From positions 248,001-312,000 of the forward strand of contig NZ_JAGGJA010000001.1 of the NCBI RefSeq assembly GCF_026229185.1: a DNA stretch of 64,000 nucleotides, given 5' to 3'. The notes beneath the pieces are model-generated. The model was not told the origin of the DNA, made no database searches, and saw nothing but the letters and a program-made list of their open reading frames with translations. This document shows, in pieces, positions 39,568 to 64,000 of this stretch (positions are counted from its first letter, which is position 1; every line of letters starts with the position of its first letter). Made by a program: the position numbers and the translations under genes. The DNA comes from Fodinibius salsisoli (lineage in GTDB: Bacteria > Bacteroidota > Rhodothermia > Balneolales > Balneolaceae).

Positions 39568-39590
39568 TGAACAGGGTTTAGAAACCTTAA

Positions 39591-41339: not shown

Positions 41340-41438
41340 TTTGAATATGGTTTAATGTTTAGAAAAAATATTTTTTTGTCTTGATGTCGGGTTATTTCAT
41401 TGGGAGTCAAAACCCCCTGCGAACAACCTCTCGGCATT

Positions 41439-44400: not shown

Positions 44401-44486
44401 AACTGAAAAGCAACGGCCTGAATTATAAATACATATAGAAGTTGTTTGAATAATAGCATCAAAAATTTTCGTAACCTTAAATACAT
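41439..44486 (-). CDS. SusC/RagA-family TonB-linked outer-membrane transporter
   Basis: The 1015-residue protein has a signal peptide, a carboxypeptidase-regulatory-like domain (TGTVVDAETGNPLPGVNISLKGTTTGTSSG), and the SusC-specific plug signature with VVAYGEQRKSDITGAISSV, a repeated VIIRGVGSL and PLYVIDG motif, and SMEVLKDASATALYGARASNGVVVITTKKG. A long beta-barrel ending in VNLSF follows. It imports large ligands with its SusD partner. It is the first gene of the leftward pair. The next genes, after a terminator, are an alkaline phosphatase and, convergently, a GH43-like enzyme. Confidence 0.95.
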   Translation of the reverse strand: MYLRLRKFLMLLFKQLLYVFIIQAVAFQFVSANPASGSTMENAVQAVDGTITGTVVDAETGNPLPGVNISLKGTTTGTSSGIKGRYELNVPSLSDTLVFSFIGYQTREVPIQERTQIDVVLQPQAISGEELVVVAYGEQRKSDITGAISSVEAEDFNAGVVANPGEMLQGVTAGVNVTSASGEPGASQDVIIRGVGSLRSGTTPLYVIDGFVLDNSSIGVANNPLNFINPNDIQSMEVLKDASATALYGARASNGVVVITTKKGQEGNTRMSLSTSTSLSTMANKIDVFGAEEFRNRVSEVGGTLDDFGGSTDWQDELTQTAQSHDINFSLSGAATDKFNYFASLGVQEQEGILKENNLERYSGRLNMNQSALNGRLDVDYHINAVHTENLRPNNGAMVVDMLQLNPTIPVYTDGSPTQLDEMLNPVQRYDIYLDEAANNRILANIAPTLEIFDGLLYKLNLGIDYSVTDRDVQTSPYAQLEGYENGTLSTFNTKNTNTLVENTLTYSIDTDVHSATLLAGHSYQHFYNESRALSMEGFSDNGIEPRYQDQTSTEITPTSINSSAEKNKLQSFFGRIDYSYDSKYMLTATMRADGSSKFGENNKYGYFPSFALGWNITEENFFNSSFIDNLKLRASWGQTGNQEIPSKITKLSYSESRDGNNTYPLSPDASNLDGYPYGTIFTRLANPDLQWEVSTQTDVGVDFELFNNRLSGTLDYYNKVSDNILLEVVPADPVQPTSTYWTNISDMEIRNSGVELTLEYRSAASKDFQYSIGGNVSTINNEVVNSPYSVLTTGAAQGAGQTGATINGYINEEPIGSFYMLEFDGIGEDGLNQFVDTNNDGEVLEDDRTVVGSALPNLIYGVQFNMNYKNLGLGLNFNGASGHKIYNHTAMSIFNKGNLASSFNTTDFATEYPDEAATNSNTVSTRYLEDGDYIRLNNATLSYQMRPELIGLEGVIRNLQLTLTGQNLFVLTNYSGYDPEVNTGTTMSGIQTFGIDHFTYPSARTFQLGVNLSF

Positions 44487-45132: not shown

Positions 45133-48100
45133 TTAATAAATGCCAACAATGTTGATGAACCAGCCGCGGTCATCATAGTCCAGGTCCGTCAGCCGGTCGC
45201 TGAAGTCCGTAAAGTTATACCCTGCCCCTATATGCAGGAAATCCGTAATCCGCCGGTCAACCCCCACCAGCACCCCGCGGCGGGCATCATCGGACTCCAG
45301 GTTCTCCCGCCAGCGTCCTTCCGCCAGTGCATCCCACCGGCCCCACACCTGGTAGCGTAACTGTAGCGCTGCAAATCGGGTGGTGCTGGTAAACCACTGG
45401 TCAAAAGGCCCGGCGCTTCTATTGCGAATCTCCCCCACCCGAAGGGCGCCTTTGGCCGTCAATTCAACTCGCTGGTGCGGCCGGTAGATGGCCTCCAGTG
45501 CCCCCACCAACGATCGCTGGTCAAAGTTGCTGCCGGTTAACGCCTGCGCGTCGCTGCCCAACTGACCAACAGACTGCCGGTCATACAGGTAGGTCACCTT
45601 CCCAAGCAGTCCCCATCGGGTGCTGTTCCACGGTCGCAGCGACACCCCGAAGTTTGACTCCAAAAAGCGCGCATCCGCCACCGCCGTGGCCTTGTCATCG
45701 GTATCGGCATAATTCAGCCGCGTGGCCAGTCGCCAGGATTCATTGATCTTATGACGAATCCGCTGGGTGGTCACCAGCTGGGTCCGCTCCTCGGCGCCAA
45801 GATCCCCCCGGTATTCAAACTTGCTGCTCCAGTTGGTCTGCCCGTCCCGGGCCCCTACCGTAGCCGTCACCGACCGACGGTCTACCCGGCCACTCTGGGC
45901 TTGCAGGCGCGCCCCGCCCAGCCGAAGCCCCAGCTGCCAATGTTCGGCCGGCATAAAATCCAGCCCCAAGCTGTGCCCCAGACCCGTGTCCGATCCGGAC
46001 TGGATCTGCTGGCTCTCATGGAACACATTCAGCCGGTCGGTCGCCCGCCAGCGCTGCCCCACCGAGAATCCATCCTGCTGGGTCGGCCCAAACAGGGCGT
46101 TGCCCCGGTAGTCCGGCGACCAGCCGTACCGACCGTACACATCGTAGTTTTGGGTGATCTGGTGGCTGGCGTTGACGCTAAAAGACTCCCCGCGCCCCCC
46201 CCGGCTGTACTCTCCGCCCAGGCTCGTGCGGTCTCTCCACAGGTACCGGGCCCCGCCCGTCAGCCGGTCATTATCCCGGTAGTCGTCCCCCGACCACAGG
46301 TCGGTTTGGCCAATACCATATAGCTCAAGTCCGGCCGCCAGGCGAGCCTCATAGCCTACGGCAGCCAAGAGCGCTTCCCCTTCCGGCCCGCCCAGCGACT
46401 CACGCACCTGCCGAACCTCACCGGTCACCGTATGATGATCGTTTATCCGGTAGTCCCCAATCAACTGGGCCTGGGAACGCTCCCGGGCGGCCGTACCGGG
46501 TAGCGGTGTGCTGGTCGGCGCTCCACCGGTGGGGGCCGTTACCTGCTGGTGACTCACTTGTCCGCGAAGCTGAAGGCCCTCGCTCACCTGCCCGTCCACT
46601 TCGGCGCCCCACTCGCGGATATCATAGCCAAAGTCCCGGCGGGTCACCGAGAACCCTCCGTCCCGTTTGCTCCACCAACTGCTGATCGTCCAGGGATTTC
46701 GGTCCCAATATCCGCTGCTATCGCCCCCAAAAACCGTGCCCAGGCTGGCCTGCCCTTCCACACGGTAGGCCTGGCCAGATCGTGACCCGGCCACGCCCTC
46801 CGGAATCGTTTCCGTGAAGGTCAAACCACCGTTATCGGAGAAAAAGACCGGCGCCTGAGTCTTATCACTTTGGGCGGCCTCCATCTTCAGATAGGTCCCG
46901 CGGCCGGCCCGCAGGGTCAGGTCGCCACCAGCCAGCTGGTAAGCATCGGCGGATCCACGCCCTTCATTAACATAGGTTCCGCCCACGCCTACGTGCTCTC
47001 CAAGCCACGCTTTTCCGCGGGCACCGGCGGTAATATTATCGGCGGCCAGCCCGCTCGGGATATATTCGTAATCAATCAGCAACACATTCTGCAGGTCGGC
47101 CTGCGGGGTATCGCGTATCAGCTCCTGTCCCTGCTCCTGAACCATCTGGGCTACGGGACGCTTCAAAATAAGCCGTCCCTGCAGGTAATCAATTTCGTAG
47201 TCCACGTCTGGTTGCAAGGTCAGCTGCCGGGTGGTCTGACCGGTCGTCACATCGCGCAGCTCCACAGTTATTTGCTCGGACCCAGCCAGCACATCCGTAT
47301 GCCGCAGGTAGTAGACGCTGGCCCCGGTAGCCACAAATTCGTTGTGCCCATAGACGGTTTGTGCATCCGAGCCAAAACCGGCCAGCTGTAGTTTACTTTG
47401 TCCCCATTGGGTGGTGGCCGGCGAATTATACCGCAGGGCTCCACCATACAGTCCGCGCTGGTACCGGGCCGTTTCAGTACCGGTAAACCGGGTCGAGTAA
47501 TTGCCCCAAAGCGCCTCACTTTTATCCCAGTTCACCCGCACGTAGAACTTCCCCTGAGAATTAATATCCCGGTGGGTGCTTCCATCATCGCCGTATACCG
47601 GGTAATACCGGTCGGGGTCAATCCGACGGAACAGATCCTGCGGGTTTTTGCCAAAAAAGCCATCAAACATATGCTGCAGCTCCTCCTCCCGGGTATCGGC
47701 CTGGGCGGTAATTAAATACTTACCCTTCACTTTTGCTTTCAGATAGAAGGCCATTCGTCCTTCCACCAACAGATCCTCCTGGAAGTTTTCGCTGCCTTCA
47801 ATGGGTTCCAAATTGCCATGCAGGCCGTTCTTGGAGGCCGTCACGTCGGCAATACCCACCATAAAAAAGTGGCTCCGGGAGGCCTGCACCTGCAGCGTCC
47901 GTTTGATAGGTTCTCCGGATCCGGTCAGCTGGATCTCAAACTGGTGGGACCCGGCCGGCAACAGGTACTCGGCCACAAACCGCTGGTCGCGGTCGACCGG
48001 AATAGATCGTCCATTGATGGTTACCTGGTTGACCGCAATCGGAATATTCTGCCCCTGCACCCGAATCGCCGATCCGACAATCGGGATGTTTTGGATGCGA

Positions 48101-48813
48101 AGATTACTGCGACCAAACACGCTCTCGGTGGCCGCAGCCTGCCCGGAAGCATTCCCTTCTGAGGAGGTTTCGGACCCATCGTAGGCCCGCTGATTGCCAG
48201 ATCCTGTCTGGCTGTTCATTTGGTTGCCGGTGCGGCGCTGCTGCATCTGTTGCGGGGACAGCAGTTCAATACTCCGGGGATAGGTTTCATCCATCTGCCC
48301 GCCCGGACCATATACGCGCATCACATACAGCAAAGAACCACCCTGCTGGAGCCCATGGCCGTCCGGCAGCTGGCCTTCCCACGGAATCTCCATCGACAAA
48401 CCGGGCTCGACCGGCAGGGTCACCAACGGATTATTCAGGGTTTCATCGCGGCCGCGGTAAATCAATAGTTCCGCCCGCTGGATAAAGGGCGCATAGTTCG
48501 CATAGCCCCGGAAGGTGATCGGCTCGGTCAGCTGCTGGCCCTGCAGAGCTGCCACCGAGGTCCCAGATACATTCAGCACTGGGTCCCCCATGGACGGATC
48601 TTCGGTGGCCCAGATGCGCCCGCCGCCCGGCAGGTTCACAAACCAGCGACCTCCCTGAGAGGCCGTCAGGGTTGTATCCGATGGGGCCAGACTGCCAGAG
48701 GCCTGCCCGGAGGCCCCGGAAGGCCATAGCATCAGCCAAACGCCGATGCACACACAGGCTGCTGCTCTCGTTATGATGCCGGCTCGCTTATAATAGTGTG
48801 TAGTCGTATGCAT
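45133..48813 (-). CDS. Large predicted outer-membrane beta-barrel protein, partner of the giant DUF11 protein
   Basis: From ATG 48813 the protein is about 1226 residues (48834 is an alternative ATG, and a TTG at 48843 is also in frame). A signal peptide ends near SGASGQ. The N-terminal 600 residues look like beta-sandwich domains, including INGRSIPVDRDQRFVAEYLLPAG. A VELRDVTTGQ...LQPDVDYEIDYLQGRLIL segment follows, recalling the DY-x-IDY-x-x-G motif of large Bacteroidota outer-membrane proteins. The last 600 residues are strings of short strands rich in Arg, Tyr and Gly, ending in WFINIVGIY, a C-terminal aromatic as barrels have. It is 62 bases after the giant gene and shares its high GC. I infer it anchors or exports the giant protein. 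No known name is assigned. Confidence 0.75.
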   Translation of the reverse strand: MHTTTHYYKRAGIITRAAACVCIGVWLMLWPSGASGQASGSLAPSDTTLTASQGGRWFVNLPGGGRIWATEDPSMGDPVLNVSGTSVAALQGQQLTEPITFRGYANYAPFIQRAELLIYRGRDETLNNPLVTLPVEPGLSMEIPWEGQLPDGHGLQQGGSLLYVMRVYGPGGQMDETYPRSIELLSPQQMQQRRTGNQMNSQTGSGNQRAYDGSETSSEGNASGQAAATESVFGRSNLRIQNIPIVGSAIRVQGQNIPIAVNQVTINGRSIPVDRDQRFVAEYLLPAGSHQFEIQLTGSGEPIKRTLQVQASRSHFFMVGIADVTASKNGLHGNLEPIEGSENFQEDLLVEGRMAFYLKAKVKGKYLITAQADTREEELQHMFDGFFGKNPQDLFRRIDPDRYYPVYGDDGSTHRDINSQGKFYVRVNWDKSEALWGNYSTRFTGTETARYQRGLYGGALRYNSPATTQWGQSKLQLAGFGSDAQTVYGHNEFVATGASVYYLRHTDVLAGSEQITVELRDVTTGQTTRQLTLQPDVDYEIDYLQGRLILKRPVAQMVQEQGQELIRDTPQADLQNVLLIDYEYIPSGLAADNITAGARGKAWLGEHVGVGGTYVNEGRGSADAYQLAGGDLTLRAGRGTYLKMEAAQSDKTQAPVFFSDNGGLTFTETIPEGVAGSRSGQAYRVEGQASLGTVFGGDSSGYWDRNPWTISSWWSKRDGGFSVTRRDFGYDIREWGAEVDGQVSEGLQLRGQVSHQQVTAPTGGAPTSTPLPGTAARERSQAQLIGDYRINDHHTVTGEVRQVRESLGGPEGEALLAAVGYEARLAAGLELYGIGQTDLWSGDDYRDNDRLTGGARYLWRDRTSLGGEYSRGGRGESFSVNASHQITQNYDVYGRYGWSPDYRGNALFGPTQQDGFSVGQRWRATDRLNVFHESQQIQSGSDTGLGHSLGLDFMPAEHWQLGLRLGGARLQAQSGRVDRRSVTATVGARDGQTNWSSKFEYRGDLGAEERTQLVTTQRIRHKINESWRLATRLNYADTDDKATAVADARFLESNFGVSLRPWNSTRWGLLGKVTYLYDRQSVGQLGSDAQALTGSNFDQRSLVGALEAIYRPHQRVELTAKGALRVGEIRNRSAGPFDQWFTSTTRFAALQLRYQVWGRWDALAEGRWRENLESDDARRGVLVGVDRRITDFLHIGAGYNFTDFSDRLTDLDYDDRGWFINIVGIY

Positions 48814-48875
48814 AAAACGATTAAGGTCTAACATTGGAATCAAAAATCGGAGGTTGCGTCAAAAATAAACCGGCG

Positions 48876-51800
48876 TTAGTCGGCTTGGCCGGAGGCGCTG
48901 CCCGCGGTGCGTAGCACACCCGTTGGGGGATTCCCCAACAACGGGCTATCCCGGCGGCCTTCCAGCAGCCGCAAGGCTTTCTGCAGCAGCGGGCGGTATC
49001 GCTCGTCGCCGGCCAGCCGGACATCATCAGCCTGCCCCACTAGAATAAGATTATCATCAGGTGTATAGCTGATTCTCACTGGCCCGGAACTCGCCCCGGA
49101 AGCTGCGATACGATATCGGTCAGTCGACAGTCCGGACTCAGCCAAGGTCTGTTGCAGGGTTTCTTTCCGACGCTCATTAAGCCCGGCATCACTTGAAGCA
49201 GGAATCCCGAACCTCACAGTGACATCGGAATACTCGGCCAAGGCCAAGCTAATGCGTTGCACTATGTACTCGCTTACGAAGTTCAGCTCCGCCGATCCCG
49301 CCGGGAAGTGCAGCCGCGTCGGCACCGCGTTATGACGGAAGTCAAATACGTAATCCCAGGCCCGCGGCTCCGGATCAACCTGCAAGTCTTCGATTTGGGG
49401 CAGGAGCATGGCAGCTGAGTCTCCGGGCTGCAGGGTAAAGCTGGTCCGACGATTTTGAGCTTTATCCAGTACATCTTTTTCTTCAACAGCCGGATTATCG
49501 TAGCTGGCGCCCGTATAGGTTATACGCTCCGCCGGCACGCCTGCTTCTTTAAGATAGGCTGCGATAGCCTCTGCCCGGCGTTCTGACAGATCCTGATTAT
49601 AATCGTGGCCCAGGTCGTGGTCGGTATGCCCCGCTATTTGGAGGGTACACTCCGGGCGGTCGGCCAAGAACACCGCCAACTGATCCAACAGCTGTGCTGA
49701 GGTGGAAATAATGGTCGCCTGGTCCGTCTCAAAATGGACGGCCTTGGGCAGTACTTCGGCTCCCGCACACGGAGGAGGTGGAACCGGAGCAGGCGGGGTA
49801 ACAGTATCGGCTGTAGCTACGGCGCGCACCCGGTCCTTGTTATTATCCGGCGCAGGATCAGGTTGCTCTGCCCAAGCTGTGGCCGTATTGGTGAATGCGC
49901 CAGCGGTATCAATGCGGACCTTCACCATCAGCTGCCGCTGCTGGCCGGGCGCCAGCGGCCCCGGAAGGACGCAGGGCAAGGTATCGCAGCCGGCCCCGCG
50001 CACATCGGTCATCTTCAGATTATCGGACCGGTCGCTCAGGCGAATGCCCTCAGCCACGGTCGGCCCGTCGTTGGCCACCGTCAGCCGGTAAGTGACCTGC
50101 TGGCCTGGGTGATACGAACTGTCGGCCACCAGAGTCTTGGTAATCGACACATCCGCTGAGGGCCACCAGATCCCAAAATCAAAGCGCACGGGAAGCCCCT
50201 GCGTCACCCGGCGTACCAGCGGATTTTCAGTGGTATAAGTGCTGCTTCGTGGCAGGGAGGATCCGTCCACCTTGACCACATAGTTGCGGCCCCGGCGCCA
50301 GCTATCCACCTGAATTGCCTCGATATGGTAGCGGCCGTAGCCGTCGGTCTCAATCATCAGCCCACGGGGGGTCGCCAGCCGGGCACCCGGCAGTCCCCAG
50401 TCGCTGTAGCCGGCATTGCTTATCCGGTAGATCAACTCGTACTCCCCGTTATCTAATTCATTCAGGGTTCGCTCAACTTCCAGACGTTGGCTGTTAGCTC
50501 CCCGTTTCAGCGCTCCTTTCGGATCGCGGCTGATTACCCCGGAACCATCCATCCGTAACTGAGTGCCTTCGTCGCTGGTCAGGCTGAAATCTCCGGTCAA
50601 ATCAGGGGTGCGCAGTCGCTGGCGAATCACAATTTCGGCCGGTTCTGCCCCCACTGATTCCCGACCGCCCAGATCGCCCAGCTCCAATCCTTTCAGCAGT
50701 GGTGCACTGCCGTCGGGGACGGCCTCAGGGCCCGTTCCTCGGTCAATGGCGGTGCTGCCCGGCACGTAGGCATCCGGTGTGAAACCGCCCTGTGCGTGCA
50801 GATCCGTAGCGGTCGCCTTATCCTGCCAGCCGTCGCGATCGTGGTCGCGGAAAACCGTACCAAGCACGCGTGTCTCATCCATCATCGGATCCCCTTCCAG
50901 CATAACAGAGGCTTCATCTTCCCCGCTCACAGGAGAGCCATTCCGCGCGGCATAAGCCACATTGCGCAGCGCCCCGGGCAGGGCCGTCGCGCCCACCCGC
51001 ATCACGTAGCTGACGGTGGCTTGTCCACCCGCGGGTACATCTATTTGACCGATCCTCAGGGGACGGAGCCCTTCCACCAGCCCCGCATTATCCATGTCGG
51101 TAACCCCCAGGCTCTGCTCCACATAGGAGAGCCCCGGGGGCGGAGTATCGACCAGCTGCACGCCCTTCACCGGCACCTCCGAGAGATTATCAATAGTAAC
51201 CGTATAGGGGACAAAGCCGCCTGCCCGGGCCGTCAGGTTCTGGGCCTGTTTGGTGATGCGAAGCTCGGGAGCCTGAGCCGTCGCACTCACCGCATCATTG
51301 TTATTCTCCAAATCCGTATCCTCTTCGGCCCCATTTGCGGATGCGGTGTTATCAAAGGAACCAGCGGCCTGGATGGTGGCCAGTACCGTGATATTTGCTT
51401 GATCTTCTGCTGGCAAAGAGGGTATCGTACAGGGGAAGCTACTGCAGCCCGCCCCGCTGGCCTCATCAATCCTCAGATTCGTCGGAGTGTCTTCCACCAC
51501 CACCCCCGTGGCCTCGGAGGGACCATTATTAGTGACCGTAATCACATACTCCAGCTGCTGGCCCGCCACATATGGACCTTCGGTCTCCAGGGTCTTTTTA
51601 ACGGAGACGTCCGTTAACTTTTGAGCCGTCCCACTGTTATTTTGATCATCGTCCGTATTGTTGGTGAGTTCTGGATCCTCGATGCTTTCACTTTCAGCGG
51701 TTGCGATATTATCAAATTGTCCTCCTCCATCAATGGTAGCCGTCACATCGATCGTTGTTTGTGCACCGACGGCCAGCGACGAAATAGTACAAGGTAATTC

Positions 51801-54800
51801 GGAGCAAGCTCCTACTACGCCGGTAATAGTCAAATTTTGGGGCGTATCCGTTATCTCAACATCCCTTGCAACGGAAGGTCCCTCATTATCTACAACTAAT
51901 CTATAGGATACTTCCTGGCCTGCTTTGTAAGGGCCTGCGGTTTGAAGGGATTTCGCTATCGAGACATCTGCGAGGGTATTAGCCGTTCCTCCATCGCTGT
52001 CCGTATTATCCGAATTATCGCCATCATTTTCTGACGGGGTCGCCGTAGCCGTGTTATTAAAATCACCAGAGGCATCAATCGTTGCTGTAACGTTAATAGA
52101 AGTTTGTCCCCCAGCGGACAGTGAAGGGATGGTACAGGGAAAGCTGCTACAGTCGGTGCCACTGACTCCCACAATGGTAAGATTTTCAGGCGTATCGGTT
52201 ATAACGATATCCGTCGCTTCCGAGGGGCCATCATTGGCTATAAACAAGGTGTATCTCACTTTTTGATCGACCTTATACGGACCACTTGTGCTTAAGATCT
52301 TATCCAGGGAAACATCCACCGAAGCATTTGCTGACCCACCGTTTTCCGGATCATCATCGGTATTATCCGATGGATTCGGATCATCCACCGATGAGGTAAC
52401 GGTGACGGAATTATTAAATGCACCCTCTTCATCAATGGTTGCCGTTATGGTAACGGTTGTTTGCCCGTCGGCTGCCAAAGAGGTTATGGTACAGGGGAAG
52501 TTGCTGCAACCGGCCCCGCTCACATTAGTGATGGTCAAATTCGTGGGTGATTCCGTTATTTCTATCTCCTTTACCGCCGATGGACCATCATTCGATACGA
52601 CAAGCTCATATTCTATCTGTTGGCCGGCACTATAAGGGCCTGTGGTTATAAGCGTCTTATTTACGGACAGATCGGCCGAAGCATTTGCTGATCCTCCATT
52701 TTCCGGGTCACCATCAGTATTATCCGATGGATCCGGATCATCTTCGGTCGGGGTAGCCGTTGCTTTGTTGTCAAAAGCGCCGGATTCTTCTATTGTGGCC
52801 ATAACGGTCACCTGTCTCTCTTCACCATCCGGAATGGAAGCGATCGTGCACGGCAGCGTGGTACAAGCGCCGCTGACATTGTCGATACTCAGATTCGTCG
52901 GCGTATCCTCCACCAAGACACCGGTGGCTTCAGAGGGACCGCTATTGGAAATTGTCAGGGTATATTCTATTTGCTGGCCATCAACATACGGCGCCGGGGT
53001 AACCAACGTTTTCGTCAGGGCAACATCGGCAGATTGTTGCCCGCTGTCTCCATCCCTTCCGGTGTTATTTTCCGGATTAGGGTCGTCTTCGTTCGGTGTG
53101 GCCGTAGCAGTATTACCAAACGAACCGGCACTATTGATCGTGGCGGTTACCGTAATAGACGTTTCATTTCCGGAAGCCAGCGATGGAATGGTACAAGGGA
53201 AGCTGCTACATCCACTGCCACTAACATTGGTAATCGTCAGATTCGTCGGCGTGTCCGTCACCTCAATGCCCGTAGCCTCGGAGGGACCGTTGTTATTAAT
53301 CGCGATGGTATAGTCCACCTGCTGACCTGCCGCATAAGGGCCACCCGTATTCAGGGTTTTGGTTACAGCAACATCCGCAGACGGGTTCGGATTGGGCGTA
53401 GATCCGCCTGTATTATCATTCGGATCCGGATCGGGGGTATCACTGTCAACGGTAGTGGTATTCGCGTAGTCCCCGTCATCCAGCACGGTTGCGGTCAGAT
53501 CCAGGCTTGCATTAGCGCCATCGGCTAAACTGCCGACGGTCCATATGCCCGAGCTCTCATCATAGCTGCCGGCCGTAGCTTGTGCACCCACAAAATCATA
53601 ACCGCTGGGCAGCTGGTCGGTTACCGTTACTCCTGTGGCCTCTGATGGTCCGGCATTGGATATTGACAACGTAAAGGTGACTTGCTTACCTACATCAGGA
53701 GTTGCATTATCAACAGACTTGCTCATCGAAAGATCGGCCGAAGCATCAGCAGAACCTCCGTTCTCCGTATCATCCGTATTATTCGACGGTTCGGAATCCT
53801 CCTCAGCAGGCGTTACCGTAACCGTGTTGTCGAATGCCCCCGGACTATCAATCGTGGCCATGACCGTTACACTGGTTTTTGCACCGGAGGCCAGGGAAGC
53901 AATGGTACAGGGCAGGGTAGTACAAGCTCCACTGACGTTGTCTATGCTCAGGTTCGTCGGGGTATCTGTTACTTCGATATTGGTTGCTTCCGAGGGCCCA
54001 TCGTTGGAAATGTCCAGCGTGTACCGTACCTGTTGACCATCAACATACGAGCCAGGCGTATCCAGTGTTTTATCCACAGAAACATCTACCAGGGCTGAGC
54101 CACTGCTTCCATCGTTGTCGGTGTTATTTTCCGGAGTCGGATCATCCTGTGCGGCATTGATGGTCGCCGTATTATCAAACGATCCCGGGGTATCGATGGT
54201 AGCCAGAAGCGTAATTTCTCTCTGGTCGCTGGCAGGTATCGAAGACAGGTCGCATGGCAGGCTGGAACAGGCCCCGCTCACATTGTTTACGGTAAGGTTT
54301 GTGGGCGTATCGATGACCAGCGCGCCCGTTGCCTCCGATGGACCGGCGTTGGAAACGGTAATCGTATATTGAACCTCCTCCCCATCCACATAGGGACCCG
54401 GGGTATCCAATGTTTTGGTCAGCGACAAATCAGCCAACAGATCACCACTGTCACCATCACTTCCGGTGTTGTTTCCAGGATTGGGATCATTTTCACTGGG
54501 CGTAGCGGTAGCCGTATTCCTAAATGAACCGGCCTCATCTATCGTAGCTTGTACCGTCATAGTCGTCTCATCGCCTGAAGCCAGCGACGGAATTGTACAC
54601 GGCAGTGTGGTACAGGCACCACTGACATTGTCAATAATGATGTTCGTCGGGGTATCCGTTACGTTAATGCTGGTTGCCTCCGACGGGCCCGCATTGGAAA
54701 TCAGAATCTCAAAGGTAACCGTTTCGCCAGCATTGTAGGGACCATCGGTAACGAGGGTCTTCGTCAGAGCGACATCCGCTGAAGGATCGGCTGATCCACC

Positions 54801-57800
54801 GTTTCCATCGTCGTCGGTATTGTTATCTGGCGTCGGATCATCTTCGTTCGGGGTCGCCGTGGCGACATTGTCAAAGGATCCTTCCTGCTCAATTGTAGCC
54901 GTCACATCAATCGTAGTCTCATCTCCGCTGGCCAGGGACGGAATAGTGCAGGGGAAACTGCTGCAGCCGCTACCCGATACATTAGCAATGCTCAGGTTCG
55001 TTGGCGTGTCCGTTACCTCGATCCCCGTCGCCTCTGAAGGACCCGTATTGGCTACCGTCAGGGTATAACTGATCTCTTGTCCCGCTACATACGAACCTTC
55101 CGTATCCAGGGTCTTGTCTATCGATACATCGGCCGAGGGATCAGCGTTGCCGCCGGTGCCGGGATCTTCATTATTGTTCGGATCCGGATCCGGCGTATCG
55201 GAGGTGACCGTGGCCGTATTCTGGAAATCTCCGGCTTCGTCAATGGTGGTCGTCACCGTAATCGTGGTCGAGCCGTCGGCCGCCAAGCTTGGGATCGTAC
55301 ACGGTAGCTCCGTACACGCACCCGAGACGTCCGTGATCGTCAGGTTCTCCGGAGTATCGGTCACGTCAATATTCGTGGCTTCCGAAGGACCGGCATTGGT
55401 TATCTTCAGCGTATAATTAACCTCTTGTCCTGCCGCATAGGGACCTTCCGTATCCAGGGTCTTAGTTATGGAAATATCAGACGAAGTCCCGGCCTCGCCG
55501 CCGTTTTCCGGATCGTCATCGTCGTTATCGCTGGGATCCGGATCATCGGTATCGGAGGTCACGGTAACACCATTCTGAAAGGGCCCTTCCGCGTCGATTG
55601 TAGCCGTTACGCTAAGCACCTGCTGATCGCCGCTGGTCACCGTCGGAATGATACACGGAAAGCTGCTGCAACCACCTCCGCTCACCTCCGTGATTGTCAG
55701 ATTTGTCGGCGTTTCGGTAATTTCTACATTTTGGGCATCCGAGGGACCCGCATTCGCAACCGTGACCGTGTACTGTACTTCCTGACCAGCGCTGTAGGGT
55801 CCGGCCGTATCCAACGTCTTGTCTATTGAGACATCCGCTGACGGATCGGCGGAACCGCCATCCGTGCTTGTATTATTATCTTCATTGGGATCGTTTTCTG
55901 TAGGCGTAGCAGTAACCTCATTATCAAAATCACCCTCCGCATCAACCGTCGCTGTTACCGAAATGGTCGTTTGGCTTCCCTCCGCCAAATTCGGGACGGT
56001 ACAGGGAAAGCTACTACAGCCGGAACCACTGACACCGGTAATCGTCAGATTCGTCGGATTTTCTTCCACCAAAATACCGGTCGCATCCGAAGGGCCATTA
56101 TTACTGAGCGTTATGGTGTAGGCTACTTCCTGCCCGGCATTGTATGGGCCCGCAGTGTCCAGCACCTTCGTAATCGCAACATCAGCAGAAGCATCGCCGC
56201 TATCGCCGTCGTTGTCCCTATTGTCATCCGGATTTGGATCCTCTTCACTTGGCGTAGCCGTTGCAGTGTTACCAAAGGCCCCTTCTTCCTGCACGGTACC
56301 TGTCACCGATATAGTCGTTGTGCTACTGTTAGCCAGGTTGGGAATGGTACAAGGAAAGGACGTGCATCCACTACCCGATACATTATCGATAGTCAGGTTT
56401 GTAGGTGTATCCGTAACCTCAATATTGGTTGCGTCGGAGGGACCATTATTCGTGATGGCAATTTGATAGTCAACGGACTGCCCGGCTACATACGGTCCGG
56501 ACGTATCCAAATTCTTTGTCAATGTTATATCTGCCTGCGGAACAGGATTTGGTGTAGACGTCCCCGTCTCATTGCCTGGATTGGGATCATCCTCATCGCC
56601 GGTAACCGACGCCGTATTTTCATAGTCGCCGTCAGCCAGTACTGTGGCTGTAATGTCAAGAGTGGCATTGGTCCCATCAGCCAAGGTGCCAATCGTCCAT
56701 GTGCCGCTTCCTGAATCATAGCTGCCCATGCTAGGTGTTGCGCTCACGAAGCTATAGCCGCTCGGCAGCTGGTCGATCACGCTGACGCCCGTCGCTTCCG
56801 AGGGACCCGCGTTGGTCGCCGTGATGGTAAAGATCACATCTTGACCCACATCCGGATTGGCATTGTTAACGGTCTTGGTCAACGACAAGTCTGCTTCGGG
56901 ATCTGCCGTGCCGCCATTCCCGGAACCGTCGGTATTATTATCCTCATTTGGATCATATTCATCCGCATTTGCTGTCGCCTCATTGTCAAAGGCCCCGGCC
57001 GCATCAATGGTAGCCGTTATATTGATGGTTGTTGAACCACCGCTGGCCAGGCTGGGGATGGTACAAGGAAAACTGCTACAGCCACTGCCCGATACGTTAT
57101 CCATGGTTAAATTAGTCGGCGTATCTTCCACTACAATATTTGTGGCCTGCGAGGGACCGTAGTTACTTATCTCCAGCGTGTACTGTATCTGCTGATCTAC
57201 TTTAAAAGGTCCATTTGTATCCAGGGTTTTGATCACTTCTACATCAGCTGAAGCACTGGGATTGGGTTCGCTGGTATCCTCATCATTATTGGGATCCGGA
57301 TCTTCCTGGTCGGAATTACTGACCGATGCCGTATTCTCATAAGGACCAGACGGCTCTACCGTAGCTGTAATATCTAACGTGACTGCAGCCCCGTTTGCTA
57401 CGGTTCCAATAGTCCAAATTCCGGTACCATCGCTATAATTGCCCTGGCTTGCCGTCGCACTAACAAAACTAAAACCAGAAGGCAATTGGTCTGTAATGCT
57501 CACATTCGTCGCCTCTGCCGTACCGTTATTGGTGACACTTACGGTAAAGATTACATCTTCGCCTACATTAGGTGTTGCATTGTCAACGGACTTACTCACC
57601 GCTAAATCTGCAACAGGAATGGGTTCTGTAACCTGATCCTCCTCCTCCACGGGATCTCCTGCAGGGTCATCCCCCGTTGCGGTGGCCGTATTCACCACTT
57701 CTTCGGCATCTACATCGGATGAAGTGACAGTATAGGTTCCGGTTAGTGTACAGCCATCACCGACATTAAGTGTTCCACACGATTCTGTATCGGGTGTTAA

Positions 57801-60062
57801 CATCGGATCGGTAATTGCTACATTCGCAAGCGTTACATTGCCCGAGTTCGTGGCCGTAATAGTATATTCCAGCTCACTACCCTCCACTATGGGCGAAGGC
57901 ACATTTGTCAATCCCTTCTCAACGGTCAGTTCCGGAGTTTGATCGGCTGTCACCGTTGCCTCGTCGGTTTCTCCAATCACTGTTCCGCCTGGATCCTCCC
58001 CAGAAGCTGTCGCTGTATTCGTAATTTCGCCATTATCCACGTCCTGCTGGGTGACTGTGTATTCAACCGGACCACAATCGGTGCTCTCGCCCGGCGCCAG
58101 GGTGGTTAAACTACAGGGCACTGTTCCGCCCAGCATAGGATCTTCCACCTCGATATTTTCCATCGTTACATTACCAGTGTTCATCACGGCAAAGCTGTAT
58201 TCAATGGTTTCGCCGGATGCTCCATACGTCACCGGATCTGTACTTTTGACCAAATCTAAAGCGGCATTCTGTTCAACTGTTACCATATAGTCATCACAGT
58301 GCTCCGCATCGGTGCAAGAGGGGCCGGGAGCAGGAGTATTTCCATCGTTAAAAGGATCGCGCCCACCGGCAATACTGGCATAGTTTGTTTGCTGACCAAT
58401 AGCATCTTCCGTAACCTGAACAGGCAGCTCTATTACCGATGTATCCCCAGCTTGGCCAGCCGCTTCTATGACTTCAGAAGTTTCACAAGTCACTTCCTGG
58501 CCCGCATAAGTACAACTCCAGCCATTAGTAGTATATGTGCCGGTCCAGTCGGGCTCAATACCGGTGGGTAACTGATCACGGACCGTTACTGGCTCTACTG
58601 GTGTATCAGGGAGATCACCGGTACCAACCGGACCGTTGTTGGTTACTGTCAAGTCATATCGGGCGTTTTGCTCCCCTACATCCCAGGTACCACCGGTAGC
58701 GTTACTGCTTTTAGTTACAGACAGCTCAGGAGCAGTAATCTCCATTACATGGTCCTCGGCCTCTCCATCACTGGCCGTTCCTGCTGGGCCAGTGATTTCT
58801 GTACTATTTGTGCTGAATCTCAGGCGTACATAACTGGTACCCGCCGTTAGATCTGAAGAGATCGTCCACGACAGGTTTGCCGTCCCTCCTGAACAGAGCG
58901 ATTCCGCACGTTCTGTCGGACTATCAAATGTTCCATTTCTATCAAAGTCAATCCAACCGGCTACCGAACCACTGCCTGTACAAGGGATAGTCTCTGACAA
59001 GGTTTCTCCTTCCTGAAGGACCGTAATGGTGTAGTTATCGGGCCAGGCATCTTCTTCGCTATTACCATTATCATCAGTCGCAGCATTGGTATCATAGTCC
59101 TGCTCAAGCTCTGTATCGGGTCCCTGACTACCAACGAAATTATCCATCGAAGGTGCCAGACCACCTGGTTGATAACCGGAATCATTTAGATCATACTGAT
59201 TTCCATCCGCCGGCAAATTATCATCTTGGAATTGTAAATCATTAACCAAATGCATAGCATCTCCATAACTGGCCGGTGCATCCCCGAAATCCGCATATGG
59301 CACCAATAGACCAATGGCGATGGCTGTTGTCCCTCCACCCTCAATGCTAAAGTCCATGCTTATACTGTTACTGGGGTTGGTAAAAGATAGAAAAGTTACG
59401 GCGGCTGTTTCATCATCTGTGCCAGGGCCGAAACGGATAGTTTGCAGGCTTCCATTATTAGTTTTTACTGCATTATAGACTCCTGCACCAGGATTTTGTG
59501 CCATCTCTACTACATTCCAGGTACCTTCGGCCGTCGCCTCCACATATTCGGTACCAGTATTAATCGCCTCTGCATCAGCCATAACCAGCCCCTTAAGGTT
59601 ATAAGCCTGCCCGCCTAATGTTGCGGTACACCCAATCGTAAAATCGGCAACTCCACCTGATCGACTAATCCCATTAATTAATTGATTATTTCCACCAGTA
59701 CCTCCAATATTATACAAATCATCCAATATGTCACCTTGCCAATCACCAGGACGGTAACTTTGTAATTGAGGAGTCCCCCCACCTGAATGTGAAACGGCGT
59801 CGATACTACATTGAATGTTCAGCTGTGATCCTCCTGCTACCTGAATACTCGCTGAGGATAAAGAACCTACATTCAAGGGCTGATTGGGCGTTCCATTTTC
59901 ACCTCCTCCCCATGTTAGCCAGAGAACCTGGTCACGATAGGGGCTGCTGCCCCCTGTGGCATATTGTGCATGGGCAATGCTTCCCAGCAACATGAATAAG
60001 CAGAAAAGTAGAAATGCCTTAAAAGCCTGTTTATGATCGTAGGCAGTTGAATATATATGCAT
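48876..60062 (-). CDS. Giant secreted DUF11-repeat protein with GEVED and C-terminal OmpA domains
   Basis: This 3728-residue protein has a signal peptide (about 1-32, ending IAHAQ) and a beta-rich N-terminal domain (to about 270). A GEVED domain comes next (GSVAGWIDFDRNGTFDSP, AEDHVMEI at its end), then about 23 DUF11-type beta-sandwich units of 115-120 residues. Sixteen have the opening ADVSxxKTLxTxGPY. Late in the chain a divergent DUF11 unit is followed by a non-repeat segment with VFRDHDRDGWQD and one last unit. An OmpA-like domain starts near residue 3439 and keeps the peptidoglycan-binding residues (AGHTDHDLGHDYNQDLSERRAEA). A second OmpA-like domain follows near 3583-3670. Acidic Asp/Asn-rich linkers join the units and could bind calcium. 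Type IX secretion signals are absent. Surface adhesion is the likely role, by family. Confidence 0.85.
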   Translation of the reverse strand: MHIYSTAYDHKQAFKAFLLFCLFMLLGSIAHAQYATGGSSPYRDQVLWLTWGGGENGTPNQPLNVGSLSSASIQVAGGSQLNIQCSIDAVSHSGGGTPQLQSYRPGDWQGDILDDLYNIGGTGGNNQLINGISRSGGVADFTIGCTATLGGQAYNLKGLVMADAEAINTGTEYVEATAEGTWNVVEMAQNPGAGVYNAVKTNNGSLQTIRFGPGTDDETAAVTFLSFTNPSNSISMDFSIEGGGTTAIAIGLLVPYADFGDAPASYGDAMHLVNDLQFQDDNLPADGNQYDLNDSGYQPGGLAPSMDNFVGSQGPDTELEQDYDTNAATDDNGNSEEDAWPDNYTITVLQEGETLSETIPCTGSGSVAGWIDFDRNGTFDSPTERAESLCSGGTANLSWTISSDLTAGTSYVRLRFSTNSTEITGPAGTASDGEAEDHVMEITAPELSVTKSSNATGGTWDVGEQNARYDLTVTNNGPVGTGDLPDTPVEPVTVRDQLPTGIEPDWTGTYTTNGWSCTYAGQEVTCETSEVIEAAGQAGDTSVIELPVQVTEDAIGQQTNYASIAGGRDPFNDGNTPAPGPSCTDAEHCDDYMVTVEQNAALDLVKSTDPVTYGASGETIEYSFAVMNTGNVTMENIEVEDPMLGGTVPCSLTTLAPGESTDCGPVEYTVTQQDVDNGEITNTATASGEDPGGTVIGETDEATVTADQTPELTVEKGLTNVPSPIVEGSELEYTITATNSGNVTLANVAITDPMLTPDTESCGTLNVGDGCTLTGTYTVTSSDVDAEEVVNTATATGDDPAGDPVEEEDQVTEPIPVADLAVSKSVDNATPNVGEDVIFTVSVTNNGTAEATNVSITDQLPSGFSFVSATASQGNYSDGTGIWTIGTVANGAAVTLDITATVEPSGPYENTASVSNSDQEDPDPNNDEDTSEPNPSASADVEVIKTLDTNGPFKVDQQIQYTLEISNYGPSQATNIVVEDTPTNLTMDNVSGSGCSSFPCTIPSLASGGSTTINITATIDAAGAFDNEATANADEYDPNEDNNTDGSGNGGTADPEADLSLTKTVNNANPDVGQDVIFTITATNAGPSEATGVSVIDQLPSGYSFVSATPSMGSYDSGSGTWTIGTLADGTNATLDITATVLADGDYENTASVTGDEDDPNPGNETGTSTPNPVPQADITLTKNLDTSGPYVAGQSVDYQIAITNNGPSDATNIEVTDTPTNLTIDNVSGSGCTSFPCTIPNLANSSTTTISVTGTVQEEGAFGNTATATPSEEDPNPDDNRDNDGDSGDASADVAITKVLDTAGPYNAGQEVAYTITLSNNGPSDATGILVEENPTNLTITGVSGSGCSSFPCTVPNLAEGSQTTISVTATVDAEGDFDNEVTATPTENDPNEDNNTSTDGGSADPSADVSIDKTLDTAGPYSAGQEVQYTVTVANAGPSDAQNVEITETPTNLTITEVSGGGCSSFPCIIPTVTSGDQQVLSVTATIDAEGPFQNGVTVTSDTDDPDPSDNDDDDPENGGEAGTSSDISITKTLDTEGPYAAGQEVNYTLKITNAGPSEATNIDVTDTPENLTITDVSGACTELPCTIPSLAADGSTTITVTTTIDEAGDFQNTATVTSDTPDPDPNNNEDPGTGGNADPSADVSIDKTLDTEGSYVAGQEISYTLTVANTGPSEATGIEVTDTPTNLSIANVSGSGCSSFPCTIPSLASGDETTIDVTATIEQEGSFDNVATATPNEDDPTPDNNTDDDGNGGSADPSADVALTKTLVTDGPYNAGETVTFEILISNAGPSEATSINVTDTPTNIIIDNVSGACTTLPCTIPSLASGDETTMTVQATIDEAGSFRNTATATPSENDPNPGNNTGSDGDSGDLLADLSLTKTLDTPGPYVDGEEVQYTITVSNAGPSEATGALVIDTPTNLTVNNVSGACSSLPCDLSSIPASDQREITLLATIDTPGSFDNTATINAAQDDPTPENNTDNDGSSGSALVDVSVDKTLDTPGSYVDGQQVRYTLDISNDGPSEATNIEVTDTPTNLSIDNVSGACTTLPCTIASLASGAKTSVTVMATIDSPGAFDNTVTVTPAEEDSEPSNNTDDTENGGSADASADLSMSKSVDNATPDVGKQVTFTLSISNAGPSEATGVTVTDQLPSGYDFVGAQATAGSYDESSGIWTVGSLADGANASLDLTATVLDDGDYANTTTVDSDTPDPDPNDNTGGSTPNPNPSADVAVTKTLNTGGPYAAGQQVDYTIAINNNGPSEATGIEVTDTPTNLTITNVSGSGCSSFPCTIPSLASGNETSITVTATINSAGSFGNTATATPNEDDPNPENNTGRDGDSGQQSADVALTKTLVTPAPYVDGQQIEYTLTISNSGPSEATGVLVEDTPTNLSIDNVSGACTTLPCTIASIPDGEERQVTVMATIEESGAFDNKATATPTEDDPDPSDNTDGDPENGGSANASADLSVNKTLITTGPYSAGQQIEYELVVSNDGPSAVKEIEITESPTNLTITNVSGAGCSNFPCTITSLAADGQTTVTITATIDEEGAFNNSVTVTSSVDDPNPSDNTDDDPENGGSANASVDVSLDKILSTSGPYKVDQKVRYTLFIANDGPSEATDIVITDTPENLTIVGVSGTDCSSFPCTIPSLSAGGQTSINVTATIDASGDFNNTATATPSENDGDNSDNTDSDGGTANTLADVSIAKSLQTAGPYKAGQEVSYRLVVDNEGPSVARDVEITDTPQNLTITGVVGACSELPCTISSLAVGAQTTIDVTATIDGGGQFDNIATAESESIEDPELTNNTDDDQNNSGTAQKLTDVSVKKTLETEGPYVAGQQLEYVITVTNNGPSEATGVVVEDTPTNLRIDEASGAGCSSFPCTIPSLPAEDQANITVLATIQAAGSFDNTASANGAEEDTDLENNNDAVSATAQAPELRITKQAQNLTARAGGFVPYTVTIDNLSEVPVKGVQLVDTPPPGLSYVEQSLGVTDMDNAGLVEGLRPLRIGQIDVPAGGQATVSYVMRVGATALPGALRNVAYAARNGSPVSGEDEASVMLEGDPMMDETRVLGTVFRDHDRDGWQDKATATDLHAQGGFTPDAYVPGSTAIDRGTGPEAVPDGSAPLLKGLELGDLGGRESVGAEPAEIVIRQRLRTPDLTGDFSLTSDEGTQLRMDGSGVISRDPKGALKRGANSQRLEVERTLNELDNGEYELIYRISNAGYSDWGLPGARLATPRGLMIETDGYGRYHIEAIQVDSWRRGRNYVVKVDGSSLPRSSTYTTENPLVRRVTQGLPVRFDFGIWWPSADVSITKTLVADSSYHPGQQVTYRLTVANDGPTVAEGIRLSDRSDNLKMTDVRGAGCDTLPCVLPGPLAPGQQRQLMVKVRIDTAGAFTNTATAWAEQPDPAPDNNKDRVRAVATADTVTPPAPVPPPPCAGAEVLPKAVHFETDQATIISTSAQLLDQLAVFLADRPECTLQIAGHTDHDLGHDYNQDLSERRAEAIAAYLKEAGVPAERITYTGASYDNPAVEEKDVLDKAQNRRTSFTLQPGDSAAMLLPQIEDLQVDPEPRAWDYVFDFRHNAVPTRLHFPAGSAELNFVSEYIVQRISLALAEYSDVTVRFGIPASSDAGLNERRKETLQQTLAESGLSTDRYRIAASGASSGPVRISYTPDDNLILVGQADDVRLAGDERYRPLLQKALRLLEGRRDSPLLGNPPTGVLRTAGSASGQAD
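51240..57620 (-). repeat. Tandem block of 18 DUF11 units of about 350 bases
   Basis: Within the giant gene, 18 adjacent units recur with a period of about 350 bases. Two types alternate unevenly. Fifteen units carry C-x4-C (CSSFPC or CTTLPC class) and the text TPTNL with small changes; three units (starting near 57610, 56900 and 53740) lack the cysteines and instead have QLPSGYxFV and SVDNATPDVG-like openings. Every unit ends in an acidic DPNPxxNxDxD-type linker. Sequence similarity between neighbours is high enough that unequal crossing-over could change the copy number. Confidence 0.8.
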
Positions 60063-60444: not shown

Positions 60445-63400
60445 ATGATGAAGTGGATTCGTTACATCGTTTTTTCTTTCTTCTTGGGTCTGACTCTTTC
60501 TTCTTTTACGGAAGTTTATGCACAATCTCTGCCTGATATCGAAGGACTTCAGCCCTTCATCCGTACCTTTCAACCGTCTGACTATCAGGCCCGTCCACAA
60601 AACTGGGATGTAGTCCAGGACCCCGACGGACTGATCTATGCTGCCAATACGGGTGGAGTTTTACAATACGACGGCTACCGGTGGGAGAAGATATCAATGC
60701 CTAAGCATAATGTTGTCAGGCAGGTGGAGTTCTATCGTGATACGCTATTTGTGGGCGGCAGAGGTACCTGGGGTTACATTAAAAAGGACTCGACCGGGCA
60801 GGCGACCTACATTCCATTGGTTAAAAAAACCGAAGAAGCGGGCATCAGAGTCGATAAAATAAGGATGATGGCAAGCACCCCTAAAGGGCTTTATTTTAAC
60901 ACTGGAGCTCGTCTCCTGCGATGGTACCAGGGAAAGATCTATCCATTTCCCGACTCTTTGAAGATTAAAAGAATGTTCAAAGTGCCAAACAAAGGGTTGT
61001 TGGCCTTTCTCCAGAATGGAAAAATTATGGCCATTAACGGGCAAGAGATTAATCCTGTTTACACAGGAACAGCCCTAAAAAAAAGGGGTGTCAGGAACGC
61101 CTATGATATTGGAGGCAGCCGCCTGGCGCTTTTTACTCTTAATGGCACCTATATTTTACAAAACAACCGCGTTACTCCGTGGATCACAGAAGCCCAGAGT
61201 TTGATTAAGGAGACCAAGATTACTCATACCAAACGCCTTCCCGGTGGTAACTTTGCATTAGCCACAAGAAAAGGGCTTATTGTTATTTCCCCTTCCGGCC
61301 ATTTGATTGCCAATATAAACAAAGCGAACGGTCTGCCAACGGATTTTATCATAAACATTTTCGTTGACCAAGCGGAGAATGTATGGCTTTCAATGAACAA
61401 CGGCTTAGCTGTTATGAATCTAAATTCTCCGGTCAGCCATTTTGCAAAAGATACGTTTGCAGGTAGAGTTAACGACATTGCTTTCTACAACCATCACCTG
61501 TATATCGCCACCACACAAAATGCCTATAAACTCATCTCATCCAAACACCAAGCAATATTTAAAAGGCTACATCAAACGAATAATCAATGCTGGTCGCTGC
61601 TTCCTACCCGCCAGGAATTATTCCTGAACTGTACACGCAACATCCAGTTGATAAAAAATAACAGCAACCACTCCCGGGAGATTTTAATTCGCCGTCCTGC
61701 ATACGGCTTAACAACACCGTCTCAATATGATTCAACAACCATATATGCCCACTCTAATAACGGGTTATTCCCGATTCATCTGGTAGACGGGCAATGGGAA
61801 GCCGGAAAATTTCTCTACAGGGGACGGTTTGGCTCAACCTATGTTATAGGGAAGAACGAGCTTATCACAAGGTCAGCAAGAAAAGGGGTATTACGTATTA
61901 AAATGGCCAAAGATACCGTTATTACACAACCCTTTGCCGAACAAAAAGTATCTCCGTCAAGCAGAATAAGGATTTACAAAATGGGGCGCTTGTTTGCGTT
62001 CCCAACGGATACCAGTCTCGTCTGGTTCAAAGTTAAGAAAAAGGGAATTCAGATTGTGCCCGATCCGGTTCCGAACCTGGCTCTCAAAAGAGTTCAGCCT
62101 CTGGATAGCACAACGGCCTGGGGTTGGGATGGCAAAACTTTCTTTAAGTTAACAAAAGACAATACGGGTTGGCACGGAGAACCCCTCAATACCGGAATAT
62201 ACCATCCATATAACCTGGATGGGATATTTCCAACCAAAGAGCATGGTTTATGGATCAGCGGTGATGGCAAGCTCGTTCATATTCGGACGAAAAAGCCTGC
62301 AGGTAAAGTTGAACCACCCCAAACACCCGTCGTCCGAAGTATTACAGGCATAAACGGAAAGCCTGTCCCCTTTAATAAAAGTAAGGGAGCGGTCGTTGGG
62401 AACCAATTTAAGGGATTTCGGATAAACTATTCATCCTTGCCTTATTTATCATCAGATAGAGTACAATATCAGACGCGGCTGACGGGATTTAGTGACCAAT
62501 GGTCTCCCTGGACCCAAGAGCCCTTTGTGAATTACAGCAACCTTTCTCCCGGTGATCATACCCTACATGTACGTGCCAGAAATCAGGCTAACCTTATTAG
62601 TCCTACAGCCACTTTACAACTGTATATTGAGCCCCACTGGTATCAAACCTGGTGGGCCAGGCTGATATTTTCAGTCATACTGCTAATGATCCTTGCAGGG
62701 GTTATTTATTTGATCACCAATCGTTATCGCTTGCAAAACTACCGGCTCCGGCGTCGTGTGGCTGAGCGGACAAGGGAACTTTCCCTCAGCAGAGATAAGA
62801 TTTCCCGGCAGGCCAACCGGCTGGAGGAACTTAACCAGCTCAGAACACAGTTTTATACAAATATTAGTCATGAACTGCGAACACCTCTGACCCTTATTGC
62901 CGGGCCCATTAAACATATTTTAACCGATAATATCCGGGATCCCCAAAAAATACGGACAACGCTTAAATCTACACTGCAAAACAGCCAGCGCCTGCACCGC
63001 CTGGTGACCCAGCTGCTTGATTTAGAAAAAACAGATTCTGACAATCTAAACATCCATGTTTCCAAGAATGATCTGACTGATTTTATCAGGAAAGTGATGA
63101 GCTCTTTTGAATCGTTTGCTGATAGCAGGGAGATAACATTAACGGCAAACCTCCCGGATCATCCCTGTTATATCTATTACGACGCCGAACAGCTCGAAAA
63201 AGTGCTGACAAATTTACTATCCAATGCAATAAAATTCACCTCCGAAGGTGGAAAAGTATCAGTTACATTAATGAAGAACGACGATACGGTTGCCATTGAA
63301 GTAAAAGACAACGGGATTGGAATAAATGAAGAGGACCTGGATCACATATTTAGTCGTTTTTACCAGGTTGACTCCTCGATGACGCGAGAGGAAGGCATAG

Positions 63401-64000
63401 GGATTGGGCTTTCGCTCTCCTATCAATTAGTTGAGCTGCATCATGGTAAGCTGAGTGTTCAAAGTGAACACGGTGAAGGTAGCACCTTTACAATCCGTCT
63501 GTTAAAAGGCAGCGCCCACTTTAGCAGCGAACGGATTGAAGATCACCCCGAAGATGTTTCCTCAGAGAACGAGTCAGCGACGACTCCTGAATTGGCCGGC
63601 CTTAAACAACAAGACAACGGAAAGTCAAAACCAACCTCAGGCGACCGGGACAAGAAAACATTGCTTATCATTGATGATAATGAAGATATGTGCCGGTATA
63701 TACGGGATGTCATGGAAGCCGACTACTGTGTCGTCGAAGCCCATAATGGGAGGGCCGGGCTTAGGATTGCCCGAAAAAAACTGCCGGATATGATCCTTTG
63801 CGATGTGATGATGCCGAAAATGGACGGATTTACCTTTACAGATCGACTTAAAAAGGATCCGATGACTGCAGCTATTCCGATTATCTTCTTAACCGGCCGG
63901 GCTGATAAAGCGGGCCGGCTTGAAGGCCTGGAAACCGGCGCTGACGATTATCTCACGAAACCGTTTGATGCCGATATTCTTCAGGTCCGCATAAGGAACA
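60445..64000 (+). CDS. Hybrid two-component sensor (propeller, Y_Y_Y, kinase, receiver), cut by window edge
   Basis: Starting at ATG 60445, with a second ATG directly after, the open frame runs to the window end (1185 codons visible). A signal peptide (ending VYAQS) precedes a two-component-regulator propeller (about 40-640) with blades such as VVQDPDGLIYAANTGGVLQYDG. A Y_Y_Y-like domain (about 640-725, RLTGFSDQWSPWTQEPFVNYSNLSPG) follows, then a membrane helix near 735-757. The DHp domain has His809 in YTNISHELRTPLTLIAG. The ATPase holds NLLSNAIKFTSEGG, DNGIGI and EGIGIGLSLSYQLVE. The receiver has Asp1120 in LCDVMMPKMDG. An AraC-type output domain is usual after this receiver but lies beyond the window. 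Such sensors bind periplasmic glycans and activate nearby loci. Confidence 0.92.
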   Translation, partial: MMKWIRYIVFSFFLGLTLSSFTEVYAQSLPDIEGLQPFIRTFQPSDYQARPQNWDVVQDPDGLIYAANTGGVLQYDGYRWEKISMPKHNVVRQVEFYRDTLFVGGRGTWGYIKKDSTGQATYIPLVKKTEEAGIRVDKIRMMASTPKGLYFNTGARLLRWYQGKIYPFPDSLKIKRMFKVPNKGLLAFLQNGKIMAINGQEINPVYTGTALKKRGVRNAYDIGGSRLALFTLNGTYILQNNRVTPWITEAQSLIKETKITHTKRLPGGNFALATRKGLIVISPSGHLIANINKANGLPTDFIINIFVDQAENVWLSMNNGLAVMNLNSPVSHFAKDTFAGRVNDIAFYNHHLYIATTQNAYKLISSKHQAIFKRLHQTNNQCWSLLPTRQELFLNCTRNIQLIKNNSNHSREILIRRPAYGLTTPSQYDSTTIYAHSNNGLFPIHLVDGQWEAGKFLYRGRFGSTYVIGKNELITRSARKGVLRIKMAKDTVITQPFAEQKVSPSSRIRIYKMGRLFAFPTDTSLVWFKVKKKGIQIVPDPVPNLALKRVQPLDSTTAWGWDGKTFFKLTKDNTGWHGEPLNTGIYHPYNLDGIFPTKEHGLWISGDGKLVHIRTKKPAGKVEPPQTPVVRSITGINGKPVPFNKSKGAVVGNQFKGFRINYSSLPYLSSDRVQYQTRLTGFSDQWSPWTQEPFVNYSNLSPGDHTLHVRARNQANLISPTATLQLYIEPHWYQTWWARLIFSVILLMILAGVIYLITNRYRLQNYRLRRRVAERTRELSLSRDKISRQANRLEELNQLRTQFYTNISHELRTPLTLIAGPIKHILTDNIRDPQKIRTTLKSTLQNSQRLHRLVTQLLDLEKTDSDNLNIHVSKNDLTDFIRKVMSSFESFADSREITLTANLPDHPCYIYYDAEQLEKVLTNLLSNAIKFTSEGGKVSVTLMKNDDTVAIEVKDNGIGINEEDLDHIFSRFYQVDSSMTREEGIGIGLSLSYQLVELHHGKLSVQSEHGEGSTFTIRLLKGSAHFSSERIEDHPEDVSSENESATTPELAGLKQQDNGKSKPTSGDRDKKTLLIIDDNEDMCRYIRDVMEADYCVVEAHNGRAGLRIARKKLPDMILCDVMMPKMDGFTFTDRLKKDPMTAAIPIIFLTGRADKAGRLEGLETGADDYLTKPFDADILQVRIRN

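Follow-up and report, generated by a model that had tools for sequence, protein, structure and literature searches.

The window, a 64,000-nucleotide stretch of the Fodinibius salsisoli genome, contains two adjacent genes on the minus strand, organized with a gene for a giant repeat protein (the adhesin) first, then a short gap, and then a gene for a predicted outer-membrane barrel protein. The barrel gene can be read from a TTG codon at 48843, but the translation makes an ATG three codons downstream (~48834) the more probable start. The genome as a whole codes for no DUF11 protein besides the adhesin and for no second barrel of this kind. There is no Rfam match within the window, and the terminator-like hairpin between the two genes is no more than chance would produce. 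The features of the pair, in window coordinates, are:

48876-60062, minus strand: adhesin ORF, 3728 aa, ATG start
59967..60062, minus strand: Sec signal peptide, residues 1-32 (hydrophobic stretch ending in SIAHA, followed by QY; read from the translation)
59307..59933, minus strand: CshA_NR2 adhesive domain, residues 44-252 (Pfam PF18651, E=3e-38)
58746..58964, minus strand: GEVED, residues 367-439 (Pfam PF20009, E=1.8e-13)
51264..58730, minus strand: stalk of DUF11/CLIPPER (and DUF7507) units, residues 445-2933 (Pfam; isopeptide-type Lys/Asp(Glu)/Asn)
50160..51263, minus strand: conserved "late segment," residues 2934-3301, 368 residues (sequence comparison; AlphaFold)
49833..50156, minus strand: last DUF11 unit, ~residues 3303-3410 (Pfam; triad K3309)
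49428..49754, minus strand: OmpA domain 1, residues 3437-3545 (Pfam PF00691, E=3e-16, match 3444-3538)
48936..49427, minus strand: OmpA-like domain 2, ~residues 3546-3709 (similarity to fused Bacteroidota proteins; low-confidence model)
45133-48843, minus strand: barrel ORF, 1236 aa with the TTG start
48706..48843, minus strand: start region and Sec signal peptide, residues 1-46 (read from the translation)
47878..48705, minus strand: N-terminal beta domains, residues 47-322, expected to be periplasmic (AlphaFold secondary structure)
47104..47877, minus strand: most conserved core, residues 323-580 (invariant columns in alignments; a ~100-residue module is locally SprA-like)
45139..47094, minus strand: predicted outer-membrane barrel, residues 584-1235, 34 long predicted strands (AlphaFold2, pLDDT mostly 80-95)

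The pair is flanked on one side (38378-44486) by a SusC/SusD pair and an alkaline phosphatase-like gene, and on the other (60445-63999) by a divergent hybrid two-component regulator with Y_Y_Y, kinase, and receiver domains.

The adhesin and the barrel protein

The 3728-residue protein is in all probability a fibrillar adhesin. The initial annotation described it as a protein with GEVED, 23 DUF11 units, an OmpA domain, and a second OmpA-like domain, all of which Pfam and homology bear out, but it overlooked the CshA_NR2 domain near the N terminus. Pfam recognizes the 23 DUF11 stretches with 1396 bits, and a listing of residue triads places the isopeptide Lys and acid in every one of them; the Asn lies at +75 to +86 in 21 units and further off in the other two. 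The stalk cysteines fall mostly into C-x4-C pairs, of which there are 16. This architecture has precedents. DUF11 was renamed CLIPPER in 2025 after the crystal structure 9IFR, from Acinetobacter silvestris B9T28_05395, which is itself laid out as CshA_NR2, GEVED, CLIPPER stalk, and OmpA-like anchor (PMC12617251), and a 2023 survey of CshA_NR2 proteins described proteobacterial members with OmpA anchors and DUF11 stalks (PMC10952558). The adhesin shares with B9T28_05395 and the CshA_NR2/GEVED adhesins its domain order, isopeptide residues, close-set cysteine pairs, and OmpA anchor, but it is longer (3728 versus 2129 aa), its host belongs to the Bacteroidota, and it has two OmpA-like domains. 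By its sequence it is thus a member of the known CLIPPER/CshA-type class, with surface adhesion itself a prediction, and the suggestion that the whole two-gene scheme is new does not hold for the long protein, an already described type of adhesin with an OmpA anchor. The barrel partner is another matter: the word "barrel" is absent from the texts of PMC12617251 and PMC10952558, neither of which mentions such a partner, and as far as the searched open-licence PMC papers show, it is unreported.

Conservation within the adhesin is highest in the late segment, and it is this part that accompanies the barrel from one phylum to another. The segment consists of a DUF11-like domain followed by an SdrD_B-like domain with a ~135-residue insert, is modeled by AlphaFold at a pLDDT of ~95, and is 40-48% identical to proteobacterial adhesins over ~370 aa (E about 1e-90 to 1e-107). 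In the tail, D3481, N3489, and R3496 of OmpA domain 1 form the Asp/Asn/Arg pattern (+0/+8/+15) that contacts peptidoglycan in the OmpA fold, as in PorE (PMC7463736). OmpA-like domain 2 lacks this contact motif, its strand/helix order is OmpA-like in a low-confidence AlphaFold model, and the double OmpA tail as a whole matches the tail of fused Bacteroidota proteins with 36% identity over 277 residues (E=5e-48). The proposed grip on peptidoglycan fits domain 1, where the contact residues are present, but in several relatives OmpA is missing or degenerate, and several stop right after the late segment, so the grip is optional rather than essential.

Neither Pfam nor NCBIfam finds a type IX C-terminal signal (type A/B domain or CHU_C) in the adhesin, in keeping with the initial annotation, and neither protein contains TPS, POTRA, ShlB, autotransporter, or intimin-type barrel domains (Pfam, E<=1).

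The downstream gene is predicted to code for an unusually large outer-membrane barrel with ~34 or more strands. AlphaFold2, run on a 64-row alignment, models it with a mean pLDDT of 81 and a pTM of 0.80, in agreement with the initial description of N-terminal beta domains and a large barrel, and the model's secondary-structure string shows ~10 shorter strands and then, from residue 584 on, 34 long ones in succession. Pfam gives only a sub-threshold OMP_b-brl match and a weak Glucodextran_B (Ig-like) match at residues 259-320; there is no match to the TonB plug or receptor barrel (PF07715, PF00593), to SprA_N or TIGR04189, to any NCBIfam family, or, by sequence, to the PDB. A search with Foldseek returns LptD, SprA, TonB receptors, and others, all with TM-scores of <=0.21 by query length. 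The barrel thus appears to belong to none of the known transporter families, and the possibility raised earlier that it might fall into an unrelated one finds no match in Pfam, NCBIfam, or the PDB.

One parallel is SprA, which has 36 strands and a ~7 nm pore that passes folded cargo, putting the predicted barrel in the same size range, and which was called the largest outer-membrane barrel known in a 2020 review (PMC7463736). When the barrel profile is compared with 30 SprA sequences using hhalign, a local match of ~100 columns is obtained (probability 85%, pairwise E=7e-6; reversed-profile control 0.03, shuffled-profile controls 0.6-0.7), a similarity that is no more than suggestive. Like SprA/Sov, the protein is predicted to be a very large barrel, and SprA is among its top structural matches, but it is half the length, has no C-terminal-domain cargo, and occurs mainly in Proteobacteria. 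The true SprA of this genome matches the SprA profile at 1528 bits. If the prediction is correct, the protein may join the few very large outer-membrane barrels known.

Pairing and fusion across genomes

A scan of 84,980 species genomes yielded 456 barrel relatives among the candidate stretches, and the best 80 of these are nearly all from Gammaproteobacteria, with others from Betaproteobacteria, Desulfobulbaceae, Nitrospirae, and Myxococcales. The two genes had been proposed to form a dedicated pair, and they are almost never found apart. Across 28 proteobacterial genomes, a same-strand late segment lies no more than 6 kb upstream of 45 of 47 barrels; of the other two barrels, one is at a contig edge and one is in reversed but adjacent order. 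In a sample of 229 gammaproteobacterial genomes, 34 have the barrel, and the late segment is present in 26 of these versus 1 of the 195 without it (p=4e-26); there is no detectable late segment in the remaining 8, and a few late segments lack a barrel nearby. Among 296 Bacteroidota genomes, the barrel is present in 21, all with a late segment (21/21, p=9e-28). The barrel is therefore very probably a dedicated partner of the adhesin, and the late segment and barrel together form the constant core of the system.

The arrangement of the two parts is varied. Where they are separate among the best barrel relatives, the upstream late-segment gene often overlaps the barrel gene by 4 bases; in Hydromonas (locus L113) the order is reversed, barrel then adhesin. 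One gammaproteobacterial genome (G605) codes for a CshA_NR2-GEVED-DUF11-OmpA adhesin with the barrel just downstream; its barrel gene is split over two frames (L172, 7886-11604), either a real frameshift or an assembly error. Copies on plasmids of Alpha- and Betaproteobacteria have the same order as in the window, and are annotated as "OmpA family protein" or "DUF11" together with "hypothetical" or "TonB-dependent receptor." A conjugative plasmid of Sinorhizobium meliloti bears the pair (L126, 881-14751), a possible route of spread. Late segment and barrel are separate genes in 6 of the 21 Bacteroidota barrel genomes, including that of the window; the other five genomes, from different families, mostly have them in one cluster with 5-16 kb between them. 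In other Bacteroidota families, a multigene cluster combines a ~1040-residue barrel with a number of short proteins resembling DUF11 (L174, 548-19683; L175, 1578-12366).

Single-chain fusions are common and occur in two orders. In Proteobacteria, Myxococcales, and Nitrospirae the order is rod, late segment, (OmpA), and barrel, with OmpA between rod and barrel in several proteobacterial proteins, and the window's own family has rod, SdrD_B, barrel, OmpA, and OmpA, with the double OmpA tail directly after the barrel. The late segment adjoins the barrel in fusions. The own-family proteins are mostly ~2400-residue chains (L030-L044) of DUF11, SdrD_B, Big_1-like, barrel, and double OmpA domains, in a recurrent cluster of a ~900-residue DUF11 gene, the fusion, and a further giant DUF11 gene. 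They share DUF11, SdrD_B, the barrel family, and the double OmpA tail with the window's pair, but differ in being one chain with OmpA after the barrel, set between two further DUF11 genes. An assignment of the ~2400-residue relatives as SprA was considered and rejected, as they are DUF11-barrel-OmpA fusions. A gammaproteobacterial open frame of 11,777 residues also ends in a late segment and barrel (G493:C2:458950-463992). Either fusion order can accommodate a periplasmic OmpA and an N-terminal rod outside the cell, similar to an autotransporter with extra periplasmic domains.

Proposed export and anchoring of the rod

We favor, as reasonably probable, a two-gene fibrillar-adhesin system from Proteobacteria in which the adhesin's own barrel passes and/or holds the rod and the OmpA tail sits on peptidoglycan. 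The adhesin and the barrel protein would each cross the inner membrane by Sec, and the second gene product would form a very large barrel in the outer membrane. The late segment would dock in or under this barrel, which would pass and/or hold the rod; the CshA_NR2/GEVED head and the CLIPPER rod, with its 23 units roughly 90 nm long and stiffened by isopeptide bonds, would project outside the cell, and the OmpA tail would remain periplasmic, on peptidoglycan. Surface display, docking of the late segment, and translocation by the barrel are the parts of this scheme that we infer, and whether the barrel is an export channel rather than an anchor only is about evenly balanced. If isopeptide bonds and short disulfide loops form in the rod units before export, they would presumably resist unfolding, and a wide pore would suit such a rod. 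A broader version, still tentative and rather less probable, is that giant CLIPPER adhesins leave by an outer-membrane export route not recognised before, with the barrel as its translocon. In this version the barrel, possibly distantly related to SprA, would recognise the late segment and release the stiffened rod as the tail stays on peptidoglycan, and the route would be distributed across Proteobacteria, Bacteroidota, Myxococcota, Nitrospirota, and Desulfobulbaceae. Type V systems (two-partner and autotransporter) are alike in having a passenger and a dedicated outer-membrane barrel, as two genes or as a chain with an N-terminal passenger, but the system here has no type V domains by Pfam, at least twice the number of strands by prediction, and OmpA domains positioned either between the rod and the barrel or C-terminal to the barrel.

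Several other readings fit parts of these data. The barrel could be a docking or anchoring platform only, with the adhesin exported otherwise, for example by the general barrel-assembly machinery, and the late segment then plugging in; the conservation of the late segment and its position next to the barrel in fusions are consistent with this, as is the fact that type IX systems use outer-membrane barrels to hold surface proteins (PMC7463736). It is nonetheless unlikely, since Pfam and NCBIfam find no other export signals in the adhesin, and the simplest reading of a fusion in which the rod precedes its own barrel in the chain is self-export. An entirely periplasmic rod, acting as a spacer or scaffold between outer membrane and peptidoglycan and fixed to the barrel and, via OmpA, to the wall, would account for the intact peptidoglycan-contact residues and for a Sec signal as the only signal, but a ~90 nm rod is too long to span the periplasm, the CshA_NR2 head is of an adhesive type, relatives can do without OmpA, and stalk length varies widely, all of which make this improbable.

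Roles for better-known machinery are more doubtful again. Although the genome codes for SprA, export of the adhesin by the host type IX system with the barrel as an accessory is highly improbable: the adhesin has no type IX C-terminal domain by Pfam or NCBIfam, and the pair is widespread in Proteobacteria, with type IX secretion being specific to Bacteroidetes (PMC7463736). We give almost no credence to the barrel being an ordinary TonB-dependent nutrient receptor that is only incidentally adjacent to the adhesin, as the annotation in plasmid records and the TonB-dependent receptors among the structural matches might imply, because it has no plug or receptor domain, whereas the adjoining true SusC is readily recognised, and because it co-occurs strictly with the adhesin and is fused to it. 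The recurrent "TonB-dependent receptor" annotation of these barrels is corrected accordingly.

A dedicated barrel that passes and/or holds the rod would bear on a wider question. OmpA-anchored fibrillar adhesins are common in Gram-negatives, their crossing of the outer membrane is undescribed in the searched open-licence PMC papers, and a survey lists many fibrillar adhesins without a known anchor (PMC8286594). A partner barrel that is conserved and in many cases naturally fused to the adhesin offers a specific, testable answer as to how such fibers are exported or held.

Origin of the pair

The barrel is 48% identical to its Lysobacter and Kangiella homologues but shares only ~20% identity with the own-family fusions, and in a quick tree it nests within Proteobacteria with high support. 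A full-length late segment is present only in the window's genome within the Bacteroidota sample. The GC content is 0.60 in the barrel and tail versus 0.45-0.49 (about 0.46) in neighbouring genes. Together, these comparisons indicate that the window pair is of proteobacterial origin. The adhesin gene is less uniform: third-position GC climbs along it, from 0.38 in the N-terminal part through 0.51 in the stalk to 0.66 in the tail (0.70 in the barrel), suggesting assembly from several sources. The double OmpA tail is Bacteroidota-like and the late segment and barrel are proteobacterial-like, and the adhesin gene is therefore a mosaic.
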